From positions 1 to 64,000 of the forward strand of contig JAQGKD010000046.1 of the NCBI GenBank assembly GCA_028290285.1: a stretch of 64,000 bases of DNA. Direction: 5' to 3'. This document shows, piece after piece, positions 57,831 through 61,874 of the stretch. The stretch is from Hyphomicrobiales bacterium (GTDB lineage: Bacteria; Pseudomonadota; Alphaproteobacteria; Rhizobiales; Beijerinckiaceae). Position 1 is the first letter of the stretch. The number at the start of each line of letters is the position of its first letter. The position numbers were made by a program, and so were the translations under genes. The notes under the pieces were generated by a model, which saw only the letters and a program-made list of their open reading frames with translations, made no database searches and was not told the DNA's origin.

Positions 57831-58430
57831 TCAGTCGCTGCCGGTGCGGGAGAAGCGATGGCCCATGATGAGAGTGTCGAGCCCCGTCTGCCAGTTCGCA
57901 TCCGATGCGAAATCTGACGAAGAACCGATCGAGAGAAGTTCGATCAGGCGATTCCGGGCGCGGTTGACGCGGCTTTTCATGGTGCCTACCGCGCAATTAC
58001 AAATGCCGGCGGCTTCCTCATAGGACATGCCCGACGCACCGATCAGCACGAGCGCTTCACGCTGGTCGGCGGGCAACTTCTGCAAGGCTTCGCGGAAGTC
58101 GAGGAAATCCATATGGCCGTTCTGGGCCGGAGCGGTCGCGAGACGCGCTGCAATGGTGCCCTCGGAGTCCGAGACTTCGCGCCGGCGCTTGCGATACTCG
58201 GAATAATAGATGTTGCGCAGGATCGTGAACAGCCATGCCGGCATGTTCGTGCCTTCGACGAACGACCCGAGATTGCTCCACGCCTTGACCAGCGTTTCCT
58301 GCACGAGATCGTCGGCCCGATCCGGATTTCCACACAGCGACACCGCGAAGGCGCGCAGGTTCGGGATCGCGGACAGTAGGTCCGTCTTGAGCTTGGGGCT
58401 GGCCTGCGTCATTCCGCTCGCTTCCCTCAC
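57831..58430 (-). CDS. ecfG: General stress sigma factor EcfG
   Basis: 199-aa ECF sigma factor. Region 2 '[31 protein letters not shown]' and '[20 protein letters not shown]'; region 4 '[42 protein letters not shown]'. GTG 58430 overlaps the nepR stop (GTGA) and has GAGGG 6 bases upstream; ATG 58412 is an alternative. It directs RNA polymerase to GGAAC-N16/17-CGTT promoters and is held by NepR until phosphorylated PhyR binds NepR. Confidence 0.94.
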
Positions 58431-58738
58431 TCGCCACCCTCTTTTTTTCCATCCAGACCGTTCAGCAGGTCCAGGAAGCGGTCGGGAATAGGCTGGTTCA
58501 GCACGTCGTCGTAAACCGACTTCAGCTGGCGCTCGATGTAGGCCTTCACGTTGGGCCCGGGCTTTGCGCCGCCCTCGATGACCTGCACGGCGTCGGTCAT
58601 CTGATGCGCCGCCGGGTTTTGAGCGGGCTGGCTCCCGGCCATCGACGCGACCGACACAGCCGCGATCCCGCCTTCAGGCAGCCTTACAGCTGGCCGGGCA
58701 GATATAGCGCGAGGCTTTTTTTTGGTATTTTCGTCCAT
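58427..58738 (-). CDS. nepR: Anti-sigma factor NepR
   Basis: 103-aa protein. The conserved NepR core is at the C-terminus ('VKAYIERQLKSVYDDVLNQPIPDRFLDLLNGL'), with a variable Ala/Pro/Gly-rich N-terminus. ATG 58738 has GGAGGGG 5 bases upstream. First gene of nepR-ecfG, divergent from phyR, behind an EcfG-type promoter. It sequesters EcfG in unstressed cells. Confidence 0.93.
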   Translation of the reverse strand: MDENTKKKPRAISARPAVRLPEGGIAAVSVASMAGSQPAQNPAAHQMTDAVQVIEGGAKPGPNVKAYIERQLKSVYDDVLNQPIPDRFLDLLNGLDGKKEGGE

Positions 58739-58819
58739 AAACACCCCTCCGGAGCCGCGGCTGAAACGCGCGCTCGCAAGATCGCCGCACCCCGATTATA
58801 AATTAACGATCCGACGTTC

Positions 58820-58845
58820 AACGCACCGATCCACGGATTGGTTCC
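58820..58845 (-). promoter_or_regulatory. EcfG-type promoter for nepR-ecfG
   Basis: On the minus strand GGAAC (58845-58841), 17 bases, CGTT (58823-58820). Perfect match to the general stress promoter consensus, upstream of nepR. Implies positive autoregulation of the sigma factor. Confidence 0.82.
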
Positions 58846-58852
58846 CACATGC

Positions 58853-58877
58853 GGAACCTTTAGACATTTCGTGTGTT
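58853..58877 (+). promoter_or_regulatory. EcfG-type promoter for phyR
   Basis: GGAAC (58853-58857), 16 bases, TGTT (58874-58877); one mismatch to CGTT. Back to back with the nepR promoter and 39 bases before the phyR start. Confidence 0.72.
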
Positions 58878-58915
58878 AACGCTCGAAAGCTCGGCCGTAA
58901 CAAGGGGCGCACAGC

Positions 58916-59740
58916 ATGTCGGTTTCGCAAGCGATTTCCTCCCACGTTCCTTATCTGCGCCGGTTCGCCCGCGCATTGTCGGGAAGCCAGGCTGGAGGGG
59001 ATGCTTATGTTCTTGCCACTCTCGAGGCGATTGTCGCCGATCCCTCGGCCTTCAAGGCCAATTCAGACGTCCGGACCTCGCTCTATCGTGTGTTCCTGAA
59101 GGTTTGGGGGTCCACGCCCGTCAACGATCATACGGATCATAGCGCAATGATGCCCGACGAAGAGGGCGCGCGCCGCAACCTGGACGCCATCTCGCTTCGT
59201 CCCCGCATTGCGTTCCTTCTCTCCTCGCTCGAAGGTTTCGAGACGGCGGAAGTAGCCCGGGCTCTCGATTGTTCGCCCGGCGAGGCAGCAGCCCTCATCG
59301 ATTCCGCGGGCAAGGAAATCGCCGACCAGATCCGCACGGATGTGCTGATCATCGAGGACGAGCCGTTCATCGCGCTCGACCTGCAGACGCTCGTCGAGGA
59401 ACTCGGGCATCATGTCGTGGGCATCGCGCGCACGCACAAGGAAGCCGTGAAAGCCATCGAAGGCGGACGTCCCGGGCTCATCCTGGCGGATATCCAGCTG
59501 GCCGACGGAAGCTCCGGACTCGAAGCCGTGAACCAGATTCTCGGCAATTTCGAAGTGCCGGTCATTTTCATCACGGCCTATCCCGAGCGCTTCCTCACCG
59601 GACAGCCGCCGGAGCCGGCATTCCTCATCACCAAGCCCTTCGGCGTCGACAGCCTCAAGGCCGTCATAAGCCAGGCGCTGTTCTTCGACCGCCGTTCGCG
59701 CCGCGCGGCACCGGGGCATGGCGAGACCGTGTCCAGCTGA
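58916..59740 (+). CDS. phyR: Response regulator PhyR (anti-anti-sigma factor)
   Basis: 274-aa protein with an N-terminal sigma-like domain (about 1-135, 'SQAISSHVPYLRRFARALSG', 'LSSLEGFETAEVARALDCSPGEA') and a C-terminal receiver (about 141-260). Receiver residues: acidic pair in 'IIEDEP', phospho-acceptor Asp192 ('LADIQLADGS'), Thr220 and Lys240 ('ITKPFG'). When phosphorylated, the sigma-like part binds NepR and frees EcfG. AAGGGG precedes the ATG. No cognate PhyK-type kinase is in the window. Confidence 0.95.
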   Translation: MSVSQAISSHVPYLRRFARALSGSQAGGDAYVLATLEAIVADPSAFKANSDVRTSLYRVFLKVWGSTPVNDHTDHSAMMPDEEGARRNLDAISLRPRIAFLLSSLEGFETAEVARALDCSPGEAAALIDSAGKEIADQIRTDVLIIEDEPFIALDLQTLVEELGHHVVGIARTHKEAVKAIEGGRPGLILADIQLADGSSGLEAVNQILGNFEVPVIFITAYPERFLTGQPPEPAFLITKPFGVDSLKAVISQALFFDRRSRRAAPGHGETVSS

Positions 59741-59763
59741 AAATCAACACTGCATAAAACGAG

Positions 59764-59791
59764 AAAAAGCCCCGGTTCGCCGGGGCTTTTT
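59764..59791 (+). terminator. Rho-independent terminator after phyR
   Basis: AAAAAGCCCCGG-TTCG-CCGGGGCTTTTT, perfect 12-bp stem with tetraloop, 24 bases past the phyR stop. Confidence 0.93.
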
Positions 59792-59810
59792 AATGAGCTG
59801 CGAGCCTGAC

Positions 59811-59842
59811 AAAAAAGGGCGGCCATGAACTGGCCGCCCTTT
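59811..59842 (-). terminator. Rho-independent terminator after the DUF3309 gene
   Basis: AAAGGGCGGCCA-TGAAC-TGGCCGCCCTTT; on the minus strand it ends in six T. It lies 25 bases past the stop of the small membrane protein gene. Confidence 0.9.
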
Positions 59843-59866
59843 CTTCAGTCCAGTTACAGCTTGAAG

Positions 59867-60025
59867 TTACAAACGGCCCATCAACAGCAGGACGATGACG
59901 ATGATCAGGACCACGCCGAGAATTCCGGAGGGACCGTAACCCCAGCCGCGGCTGTGGGGCCAGGACGGCACAGCACCAACGAGGAGCAGGATCAGGATAA
60001 TCAGAAGAATGGTGCCGAGGGTCAT
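59867..60025 (-). CDS. DUF3309 family small membrane protein
   Basis: 52-aa protein with two hydrophobic helices (starting 'TLGTILLIILILLLVGAVPS' and 'GILGVVLIIVIVLLLMGRL') around the short loop 'WPHSRGWGYGPS', the hallmark of DUF3309. ATG 60025 has GGAG 8 bases upstream. It has its own terminator and a likely EcfG promoter (60109-60134). Family function unknown; members are typical of alphaproteobacterial stress regulons, so a membrane stress role is plausible. Confidence 0.88.
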   Translation of the reverse strand: MTLGTILLIILILLLVGAVPSWPHSRGWGYGPSGILGVVLIIVIVLLLMGRL

Positions 60026-60108
60026 GAGGTTGCTCCGTCATTTTGCCCAATCGGGGCCCGTGTTCGTGACGAGATCAAGGCAGCTTGACCATTCGCCAGT
60101 GCAAGCTC

Positions 60109-60134
60109 AACTCAGATTAGGCGCAGTTTGTTCC
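60109..60134 (-). promoter_or_regulatory. Probable EcfG-type promoter for the DUF3309 gene
   Basis: Minus strand GGAAC (60134-60130), 17 bases, AGTT (60112-60109); one mismatch to CGTT. It lies 84 bases before the ATG. Confidence 0.55.
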
Positions 60135-60170
60135 CTGCTCTGACAAGCTTTGTTGACGGTCTGCGAGCCA

Positions 60171-60258
60171 AGAAAAACCCGCGACGGCAGGGGCGGCCGT
60201 CGCGGGTTGGTATTGTACGAAGCAGACTCGGGAGGGGGTCTAAGCCCGATCGCACGGC
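60171..60258 (-). ncRNA. Candidate general-stress small RNA (GsrN-like)
   Basis: About 88-nt predicted minus-strand transcript in a 346-base gap. It begins 6-8 bases after a perfect EcfG-type promoter (60264-60288) and ends at a strong terminator AACCCGCGACGGC / GCCGTCGCGGGTT plus T run (60171-60208). Between them a short hairpin AGAC-CCCCTCCCGA-GTCT (60224-60241) exposes a C-rich loop complementary to Shine-Dalgarno sequences. This combination matches Caulobacter GsrN, a sigma-T-controlled sRNA with a C-rich loop. No open frame fits. Homology to GsrN is inferred from architecture. Confidence 0.62.
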
Positions 60259-60263
60259 TAGCA

Positions 60264-60288
60264 AACGTCATCTCGCACGAGTGGTTCC
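60264..60288 (-). promoter_or_regulatory. EcfG-type promoter for the small RNA
   Basis: Minus strand GGAAC (60288-60284), exactly 16 bases, CGTT (60267-60264): perfect consensus. Confidence 0.8.
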
Positions 60289-60315
60289 ACGATATTCTAT
60301 GCACAAATTACGCTC

Positions 60316-60340
60316 GGAACCGCCCCCCTCCGACGACGTT
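60316..60340 (+). promoter_or_regulatory. EcfG-type promoter for the PRC-barrel gene
   Basis: GGAAC (60316-60320), exactly 16 bases, CGTT (60337-60340): perfect consensus, 32 bases before the ATG. Divergent from the sRNA promoter with 27 bases between. Confidence 0.82.
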
Positions 60341-60371
60341 CCCCTGACTGCAGGCTTTCAGGAGGATCAAC

Positions 60372-60752
60372 ATGGCAACGACCACCAGCAACACACGCGA
60401 GACGCACGAGCTCATCGCCTCGGACAAGGTCGAAGGCACCGCGGTCAGGCGCCCCAATGGCGACAAGATCGGGGAAATCGAGCGCGTGATGATCGACAAG
60501 CGTTCCGGCAAGGTCGCTTATGCCGTCATGAGCTTTGGCGGTTTCCTGGGCGTCGGCGAGGATTACTATCCCGTCCCGTGGGACAAGCTGACCTATAATA
60601 CCGCCATCGACGCCTATGAACTCGACATCAGCGAAGACCGGCTGAGCGGCGCTCCGAAATATCCGGCGGGTACGGATTACGATTGGTCGCGCGAAGGCGG
60701 CGGCAAGAGCGTGAACGAATTCTACGGCACGCAGCCTTACTGGACGTTCTGA
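60372..60752 (+). CDS. PRC-barrel domain protein
   Basis: 126-aa soluble protein. PRC-barrel core 'LIASDKVEGTAVRRPNGDKIGEIERVMIDKRSGKVAYAVM' region and 'GVGEDYYPVPWDKLTYN'. Such small PRC proteins are frequent members of alphaproteobacterial general stress regulons; the molecular role is unknown. ATG 60372 has AGGAGG 7 bases upstream and an EcfG-type promoter. Monocistronic by appearance. Confidence 0.9.
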   Translation: MATTTSNTRETHELIASDKVEGTAVRRPNGDKIGEIERVMIDKRSGKVAYAVMSFGGFLGVGEDYYPVPWDKLTYNTAIDAYELDISEDRLSGAPKYPAGTDYDWSREGGGKSVNEFYGTQPYWTF

Positions 60753-60763
60753 CAGCGAGACTT

Positions 60764-60788
60764 CGTCCGGCGCGTGTGGCGCCGGACG
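60764..60788 (+). terminator. Stem-loop after the PRC-barrel gene
   Basis: CGTCCGGCGC / GCGCCGGACG with a 5-base loop, 12 bases past the stop; strong stem but no T run. Confidence 0.5.
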
Positions 60789-60850
60789 TGGACAGCCTGT
60801 CCGAGTCCAGGCACGGCCCGCGTCGCCTTGCACCTCGCAACGACGGCGAC

Positions 60851-60875
60851 GGAACCCCTTTCGGGCCACAGCGTT
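60851..60875 (+). promoter_or_regulatory. EcfG-type promoter for ku-ligD
   Basis: GGAAC (60851-60855), exactly 16 bases, CGTT (60872-60875): perfect consensus, 54 bases before the ku start. Confidence 0.8.
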
Positions 60876-60929
60876 GCTTTTCCATCAAATATTGCAGGCG
60901 TTTCTCAGTGTGTCGCGTAGGAGACGAAG

Positions 60930-61874
60930 ATGGCGCCGCGTGCGAATTGGAAGGGCTACCTCAAACTGTCGCTTGTCTCCTGTCCGGTGGCACTCTTTCC
61001 TGCTGCCAGCACGAGCGAGCGCGTCTCATTCCATCTGATCGGTGGCGAGACGCATAACCGGCTTAAACAGCAATATGTCGACTCCGTCACCGGAGATCTC
61101 GTCGAGTCGGGCGAGCGGATGCGCGGTTATGAAATCGCGAAGAACGAATATGTGCCTGTTACCGACGAAGAGCTTGGAGACGTCGCTCTGGAAAGCACGC
61201 ATACGATCGAGATAGAACAGTTCGTGCCGCGCAAGCAGGTCGATGAAGTCTATTTCGACTCGCATTATTATATCGCGCCCGACGACAAGGTCGGCGAGGA
61301 GGCCTTCGCGGTCATCCGCGAGGCCATGCGCCAGCGCGATGTCGTCGGCCTCGCCCGCGTCGTTCTCTTCCGCCGCGAGCGCATCCTGATGATCGAGCCG
61401 CGCGGCAAGGGGCTGATGGCGACCACCCTTCGCTATGACTACGAAGTGCGTGACGAGGACGCCTATTTCGACGAGATCGGCGACACGCATGTGGGCAAGG
61501 AAATGCTCGATCTCGCCAACCACATCATCGATACGAAGAAGGGAAAATTCGATCCCGCGACCTTCAAGGATCGTTATCAGGACGCGGTCGTGGATCTCAT
61601 CCGCGCCAAGCGTGCGGGCCAGCCGATCGCGGCGCCCAAGCCCAGCCGTCCGAGCAATGTCATCAACCTGATGGAGGCGCTGCGCCGCAGCGTCGACGCG
61701 GAAACGAAAGGCGAGGCCAAGGCCCCTGCCCGAGCGGCGAGCTCGACGAAACGCCGCGCACCGGCCAAGCGCGCCGAGAGCGCGAAGCCCGCACCAAAAA
61801 AGACGTCGACAAAAGCGCCTGCCAAAGGATCGTCCGCGAAAGCGAGCGCCGCCCGCAAGCGCAAAGCTGGTTGA
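60930..61874 (+). CDS. ku: Non-homologous end-joining protein Ku
   Basis: 314-aa bacterial Ku. Core features: 'ANWKGYLKLSLVSCPVALFPA', 'ERVSFHLIG', 'YVPVTDEELGDVALESTHTIEIEQFV', 'YFDSHYYIAPDD' and 'KFDPATFKDRYQDAVVDLIRAKRAG'. The last 60 residues are a Lys/Ala-rich tail, as in Ku proteins that bind DNA and LigD. GGAGACG precedes the ATG. It forms a homodimeric ring on broken DNA ends and recruits LigD, encoded 12 bases downstream. Confidence 0.96.
   Translation: MAPRANWKGYLKLSLVSCPVALFPAASTSERVSFHLIGGETHNRLKQQYVDSVTGDLVESGERMRGYEIAKNEYVPVTDEELGDVALESTHTIEIEQFVPRKQVDEVYFDSHYYIAPDDKVGEEAFAVIREAMRQRDVVGLARVVLFRRERILMIEPRGKGLMATTLRYDYEVRDEDAYFDEIGDTHVGKEMLDLANHIIDTKKGKFDPATFKDRYQDAVVDLIRAKRAGQPIAAPKPSRPSNVINLMEALRRSVDAETKGEAKAPARAASSTKRRAPAKRAESAKPAPKKTSTKAPAKGSSAKASAARKRKAG

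Follow-up and report, generated by a model that had tools for sequence, protein, structure and literature searches.

Does the gap between the DUF3309 and PRC-barrel genes of this general stress island (Pfam: sigma factor, NepR, PhyR, Ku) contain a gene for a small regulatory RNA? A sequence-only reading of the window (the whole stretch of 64,000 nt of DNA that was analyzed) had placed a perfect minus-strand EcfG promoter and a strong intrinsic terminator in this gap, and had proposed a GsrN-like RNA between them. Judged from its sequence and its relatives, the unit is very probably a locally well conserved gene for a short regulatory RNA of the stress regulon. The features of the locus are compiled in Table 1; the sigma factor gene was named EcfG because of its NepR-PhyR context.

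Table 1. Features of the stress locus and of the candidate RNA unit (window coordinates)
Feature	Position	Strand	Details
EcfG sigma factor gene	57831..58430	-	Pfam sigma-70 regions 2 and 4
NepR anti-sigma factor gene	58427..58744	-	Pfam NepR
PhyR response regulator gene	58916..59740	+	Pfam PhyR domains and receiver
DUF3309 gene	59867-60025	-	Pfam; start 150 bases downstream, same strand
Separate EcfG-like promoter of DUF3309, GGAAC-N17-AGTT	60109..60134	-	downstream of the RNA terminator
Small RNA gene (candidate), about 88 nt	60171..60258	-	predicted start 6-7 nt past the -10 element; predicted end in the T run
Intrinsic terminator stem-loop	60176..60208 (with T run to 60171)	-	13 pairs (10 GC), 7-nt loop
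Second C-rich loop, CGCCCCU, in the terminator	60195-60189	-	possible second contact
5' hairpin presenting the C-rich loop	60215..60255	-	MFE and centroid fold
Loop motif CCCCCUCCC	60230..60238	-	complementary to G-rich Shine-Dalgarno sequences
EcfG-type promoter of the RNA, GGAAC-N16-CGTT	60264..60288	-	-35 at 60288-60284, -10 at 60267-60264; exact match
Divergent EcfG promoter before the PRC-barrel gene	60316..60340	+	27 bases from the RNA promoter
PRC-barrel gene	60372-60752	+	Pfam
Ku gene	60930-61874	+	Pfam

Both elements of the proposed pair were recovered. The promoter motif GGAAC-N16-18-CGTT matches five times in the window versus 1.25 expected, and the terminator ranks top among the terminator-like sites of the window. 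A terminator alone is not rare, since nine such sites were detected versus 6.4 in shuffled sequences. An EcfG promoter followed by a terminator within 150 nt, however, was found at one place in the window, whereas 200 shuffles of the full 64 kb that preserve dinucleotides contained no such pair. The T run indeed exists on the minus strand only: this strand reads TTTTTCTT 3' of the terminator stem, and the plus strand continues with GGTATTG. Reading of the sequence revealed no ATG within the candidate RNA, and a GTG open reading frame (60107-60304) begins upstream of the predicted transcription start.

Four of the five promoter matches cluster within 2.1 kb at the stress locus, at 58845-58820 (-), 60288-60264 (-), 60316-60340 (+) and 60851-60875 (+). 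A plus-strand EcfG site on the PRC side is present at the matching place in L006, L007, L009, L011 and L012. The match at 60851-60875 is a perfect EcfG promoter preceding the Ku gene, and in L006 and L007 a site lies at the matching distance from phyR. Because an EcfG promoter fronts the Ku gene, the stress regulon may include DNA end-joining.

The RNA was predicted to form two hairpins with -42 kcal/mol (z -5.9), and none of 200 shuffled sequences was equally stable. The 5' domain taken alone has a z of -1.4, and thus much of this stability is due to the terminator. In the window, the motif CCCCCUCCC is enclosed by 13 pairs and has a mean unpaired probability of 0.83. Folds were surveyed for 30 of 31 members: L061 was left out, as the script found no terminator stem (the hairpin is visible by eye), and L008, whose copy of the unit is cut by a contig end, was not included; the row for L062, with a misplaced end (135 nt), is unreliable. 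The motif was enclosed by at least five pairs in 28 of the 30 members, and its mean unpaired probability was at least 0.8 in 20. The 5' domain had a z of -1.5 or below in 17 members and above -1.5 in 13. CCC was found in the terminator loop of 18 of the 30 members measured.

Is the unit kept in relatives? The closest PhyR loci among the genome contigs searched are mainly from MAGs, which bear the labels Beijerinckiaceae, Hyphomicrobiales or Rhizobiales; those with the best match scores have 94-96% PhyR identity. On this basis, the window was assigned to Beijerinckiaceae. BLASTn downstream of phyR yielded matches of 70-84 bases in L006-L009 and shorter, terminator-only matches in L011 and L012. 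The unit adjoins phyR in L006-L009, L011, L012, L026, L028, L030, L031, L032, L041, L047, L048, L050 and L054, and loci titled Pseudorhodoplanes or Xanthobacteraceae have it too (L061, L062, L064, L066, L067, L069). The promoter of the RNA in relatives is mostly GGAAC with CGTT, CATT, AGTT or TGTT at similar spacing; in L064, L066 and L067 it departs further from the consensus.

Searches among relatives that require the motif provide no independent test of loop conservation. In a motif-blind scan, an EcfG-type promoter followed by a terminator, less than 3 kb from phyR, was searched for in the window and 80 loci. Besides the one in the window, it detected units in 14 loci, with two overlapping promoter calls in L026 taken as one; 13 of these 14 carry CCCCUCCC, the exception being a unit of L048 at +2418. 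Thus, the C-rich hairpin, on whose conservation the sequence-only reading had staked its proposal, is conserved. The scan is strict: among the members that it missed are another L048 unit, L050, L054, L061 and L062, and by the same strict promoter and terminator scan no unit was found in the Methylocapsa, Methylocella and Beijerinckia loci. Beside phyR in L049 (4095-4260, minus strand) lies a promoter and a terminator with a C7 loop, with no C-rich 5' loop, possibly a diverged form.

Covariance model R1 was built from eight sequences, including that of the window. In the genome of the window, the sole strong match is at 60171-60259 (83.6 bits). Among 51 genus genomes, 14 had matches of at least 40 bits, each with a match on the phyR contig. 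Eight of the 14 had supplied the model, and six are outside it (G102, G130, G131, G132, G133, G135). G131 and G132 match by the terminator half only, and the whole unit is visible by eye (L012 and L011, respectively). In G102, a partial copy sits where the phyR contig ends, and a stronger second copy lies on another contig together with DUF3309, PRC and Ku. The loops of the G102 versions differ (L145, GACCCCC; L222, GATCCCC), pointing to duplication or mixed strains. Since four PhyR-bearing genomes with at least 83% PhyR identity had no R1 match (G067, G136, G096, G143), the distribution of the gene is patchy.

Farther out, a DNA search of 99 family genomes gave four with a match, including that of the window; the other three matches are short and cover the terminator region. 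A plasmid nucleotide search with the unit gave no matches. The promoter-plus-motif pattern matched 40 times in 36 of 397 genomes of the family versus 20 times for the backward control (manual table count), and 10 of the 30 family pattern loci retrieved have PhyR or other stress-island genes within the stretch examined. In the order, there were 18 matches in 18 of 397 genomes versus 35 in the control (manual count). As these do not exceed the control, the exact motif is not order-wide.

Compensatory changes in the 5' stem were detected in two subfamilies, groups B and D, which keep the CCCCUCCC loop; the subgroup of the window itself is not among them. In group B (seven sequences, with L041 partly out of register in the alignment), 96% of the cells pair, both sides changed in 3 of 11 pairs, and 4 of 500 shuffles reached the covariation score. 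In group D (six sequences), both sides changed in 6 of 10 pairs and none of 500 shuffles reached the score. These shuffle counts are to be read with the covariation tool's warning that scores above such shuffles can also arise among related sequences. In the terminator, 4 of 13 pairs had changed on both sides (eight sequences). With the mixed alignment A2, RNAalifold predicted the terminator only and no 5' hairpin, since the subgroups have 5' arms of different length and sequence.

Units beyond the genus were searched for in 40 phyR regions of 10 kb. Of these, 31 came from other genera or families and 2 from relatives within the genus that had no match, and 7 had been chosen because of an earlier pattern match. 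The scan gave 11 matches and none on reversed sequences; six were in 5 of the 31 regions, none in the 2, and five in 4 of the 7. Not all of these 11 are convincing as RNAs. L433, from the same family and another genus, has two units of EcfG promoter and terminator near phyR (5308 and 7043, both minus), and L422, from another family, has one (5462, plus). They contain C-rich stretches in hairpin loops, with sequences other than that of the RNA in the window, and are candidates for separate GsrN-like RNAs. They agree with a published report in which sRNAs driven by EcfG are described as widespread in the class (PMC5869019). The RNA in the window suggests that C-rich regulatory RNAs recur at the stress locus as part of the general stress response of Alphaproteobacteria, with their sequence turning over.

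Which mRNAs could such a loop recognize? Target sites were defined as GGGAGGGG, the complement of the loop, 2-10 bases before an ATG. The genome of the window has 18 such sites versus 3 for the backward pattern. Sites were taken from G000 (18 of 18), G106 (15 of 15), G101 (20 of 21), G102 (20 of 30, hand-picked) and G107 (0 of 39), and 41 of the resulting 73 gave an ORF of at least 100 amino acids. Among the Pfam families listed were TctC (6), NMT1-type (5) and SBP_bac_5 (1), that is, at least 12 of the 41 ORFs are solute-binding if these assignments do not overlap. With the control SD AGGAGGAA, 79 sites were found in four genomes; 40 hand-picked sites led to 28 ORFs, at least 7 of which are solute-binding (among the families listed and the first member, again if these do not overlap). 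No clear functional difference between GGGAGGGG ORFs and those of the control SD was seen, the solute-binding share being similar.

In G112, in which no copy of the RNA was detected, there are 38 GGGAGGGG sites. Twenty of them, hand-picked with a preference for short spacers, gave 19 ORFs (L367-L386), 15 of them solute-binding by Pfam tally (TctC, Peripla_BP_6, DctP, NMT1). This points to some SD-directed control of nutrient uptake in G112. Since the same SD thus precedes many binding-protein genes in G112, the solute-binding class is not confined to genomes that carry the RNA. The GGGAGGGG SD was carried over between genomes with diverged flanks in front of a zinc-type dehydrogenase gene (L257, L273, L305) and of a binding-protein-like gene, TctC-like by reading (L256, L281).

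The sequence-only reading had mentioned katG as a target of GsrN. In the katG leader of this genome (L155), a conserved element lies upstream, and the 50 bases from it to the ATG contain no run of four G; their longest match to the loop is GGAGG, in the SD. GGGG runs occur only upstream of the conserved element, at distances of 144, 150 and 229 bases from the ATG. Thus katG finds no support as a target in this genome; as these distances are counted from the ATG and not from a mapped mRNA start, the exclusion is not a strict one. A katG family match is absent in 26 of the 51 genus genomes, several of which are incomplete.

What the sequences themselves hold is a promoter, a terminator, conservation at the phyR locus, a stem that covaries in two subfamilies, and a kept loop. 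The most likely interpretation is a sigma-EcfG-driven trans-acting sRNA with an anti-Shine-Dalgarno loop, functionally like GsrN and ReC64. As the full explanation we consider it probable that EcfG transcribes an RNA of about 88 nt that acts in trans under stress by pairing with mRNA ribosome-binding sites; here we infer transcription, EcfG dependence, the role of Hfq, trans-action and repression. In this model, PhyR would free EcfG from NepR, EcfG RNA polymerase would transcribe the RNA, and its own terminator would end it. The unpaired CCCCCUCCC loop in the 5' hairpin would be antisense to G-rich SD sequences, with the terminator loop CGCCCCU as a possible second contact. Most likely, the RNA would base-pair with a group of mRNAs at their ribosome-binding sites, probably with the help of Hfq. 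Pairing would lower translation of the targets in stress, adding a post-transcriptional arm to the general stress response. SD-directed repression is the favored mechanism, and it is the anatomy of the RNA that argues for it, since the functional mix of the predicted targets resembles that of the control SD and G112 has the same SD. The locus offers a concrete test case for whether a stress sigma factor acts on translation via SD-directed pairing.

Could the promoter instead drive DUF3309, with the hairpin at 60208-60176 acting as a leader or attenuator that controls read-through? The position of DUF3309 on the same strand fits, and the order RNA-DUF3309 recurs in several relatives. However, DUF3309 has its own EcfG-like promoter past the terminator, and thus the unit is not simply its leader; at the matching place, L006, L007, L008 and L009 have the full CGTT consensus version of this promoter. 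In L030, L032 and L054, moreover, the RNA has the same loop at a distance of 160-400 bases from phyR, and the terminator fold dominates the predicted ensemble. Altogether, a leader or attenuator of DUF3309 is very unlikely. Also very unlikely is a conserved promoter-terminator pair without a functional RNA, such as a transcriptional insulator between divergent EcfG promoters: the closeness of the PRC promoter and the relatives that keep phyR and show no RNA would be consistent with it, but the kept loop and the covarying 5' hairpin are needless for a terminator alone.

Two further readings retain an RNA and assign it more specific targets. A two-loop anti-SD RNA might silence solute-binding-protein mRNAs with a GGGAGGGG SD and, by pairing of CGCCCCU with the phyR SD, limit the response. 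The phyR SD, AGGGGCG (58903-58909), is complementary to the terminator loop and is also present in L006, L007, L008 and L009; loci where no RNA was detected, e.g., L013, L014, L015, L022 and L027, also have AGGGG in the phyR leader. We regard this two-loop reading as quite unlikely; if true, it would be a growth-to-survival switch with built-in feedback and less uptake of organic substrates. An orthologue of GsrN proper, which would activate katG and other mRNAs by pairing of its C-rich loop with G tracts in their leaders, is unlikely. It would explain the same promoter class, the same type of locus, the similar size and the exposed 5' C-rich loop. Against it stand the katG leader and the genomes lacking a katG family match described above, and the loop itself, CCCCCUCCC with an anti-SD core, versus the six tandem cytosines described for GsrN. 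The preferred reading remains the trans-acting anti-SD sRNA. Of the sequence-only proposal, one part is supported by promoter, locus and relatives: the stress locus probably has a gene for an EcfG-dependent small RNA that carries a C-rich loop and is of the GsrN/ReC64 kind.

How does this RNA relate to known families? The Rfam search, suggested in the sequence-only reading, did not place it: at 58700-61000 there were 17 matches, none at gathering score and none named GsrN, and 20 related loci gave 14 matches, likewise none at gathering score. The ar14 model reached 25.3 bits on the window (gathering score 58.8) and at best 28.7 bits on the 20 related loci; the ar7 model reached 23 bits (gathering score 60) and at best 28.1. 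An ar15/AbcR search had matches in none of 10 genomes, but as the controls were likewise without a match, this negative carries no weight. No RNA of this kind in Beijerinckiaceae was named in the titles of the openly licensed literature searched, although one may still be in print.

GsrN of Caulobacter crescentus is reported to have an EcfG/SigT promoter, a length of about 100 nt, a 5' hairpin with an exposed C-rich loop and an intrinsic terminator; its homologues are typically near ecfG-nepR-phyR, with C. crescentus itself as an exception, and BLASTn matches to GsrN end at Caulobacteraceae (Tien et al. 2018; PMC5869019). The RNA in the window shares the consensus EcfG promoter directly upstream, the proximity to ecfG-nepR-phyR, a similar size, the 5' hairpin with its exposed C-rich loop, and the terminator. 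Unlike GsrN, it has the anti-SD core CCCUCCC and not a plain C tract, and no site was found in the katG leader of its genome; the two are likened by description, not by sequence alignment. ReC64 of Rhizobium etli is described as an 88-nt, EcfG1-dependent RNA downstream of phyR-tcrY, with a consensus promoter and 5' RACE data (PMC3892343, PMC2881028). The RNA in the window is like it in its length of about 88 nt, its position downstream of phyR and its EcfG consensus promoter, again by description, but ReC64 is from another lineage of the order. Alpha-r14/NfeR1 (RF02344) also presents an anti-SD motif in hairpin loops, and the Rfam consensus has it in the last hairpin as well. Its motif, however, is CCUCCUCCC, in three hairpins, under a sigma-70 promoter (PMC10746234), whereas the RNA in the window has the loop CCCCCUCCC and an EcfG promoter. 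EcfG-driven C-rich sRNAs are thus a known kind, and what is new is a distinct group with an anti-SD loop variant and no Rfam family match. A theme described so far in Caulobacter and a few rhizobia thereby reaches Beijerinckiaceae and Pseudorhodoplanes, where a structure-backed model represents this group.
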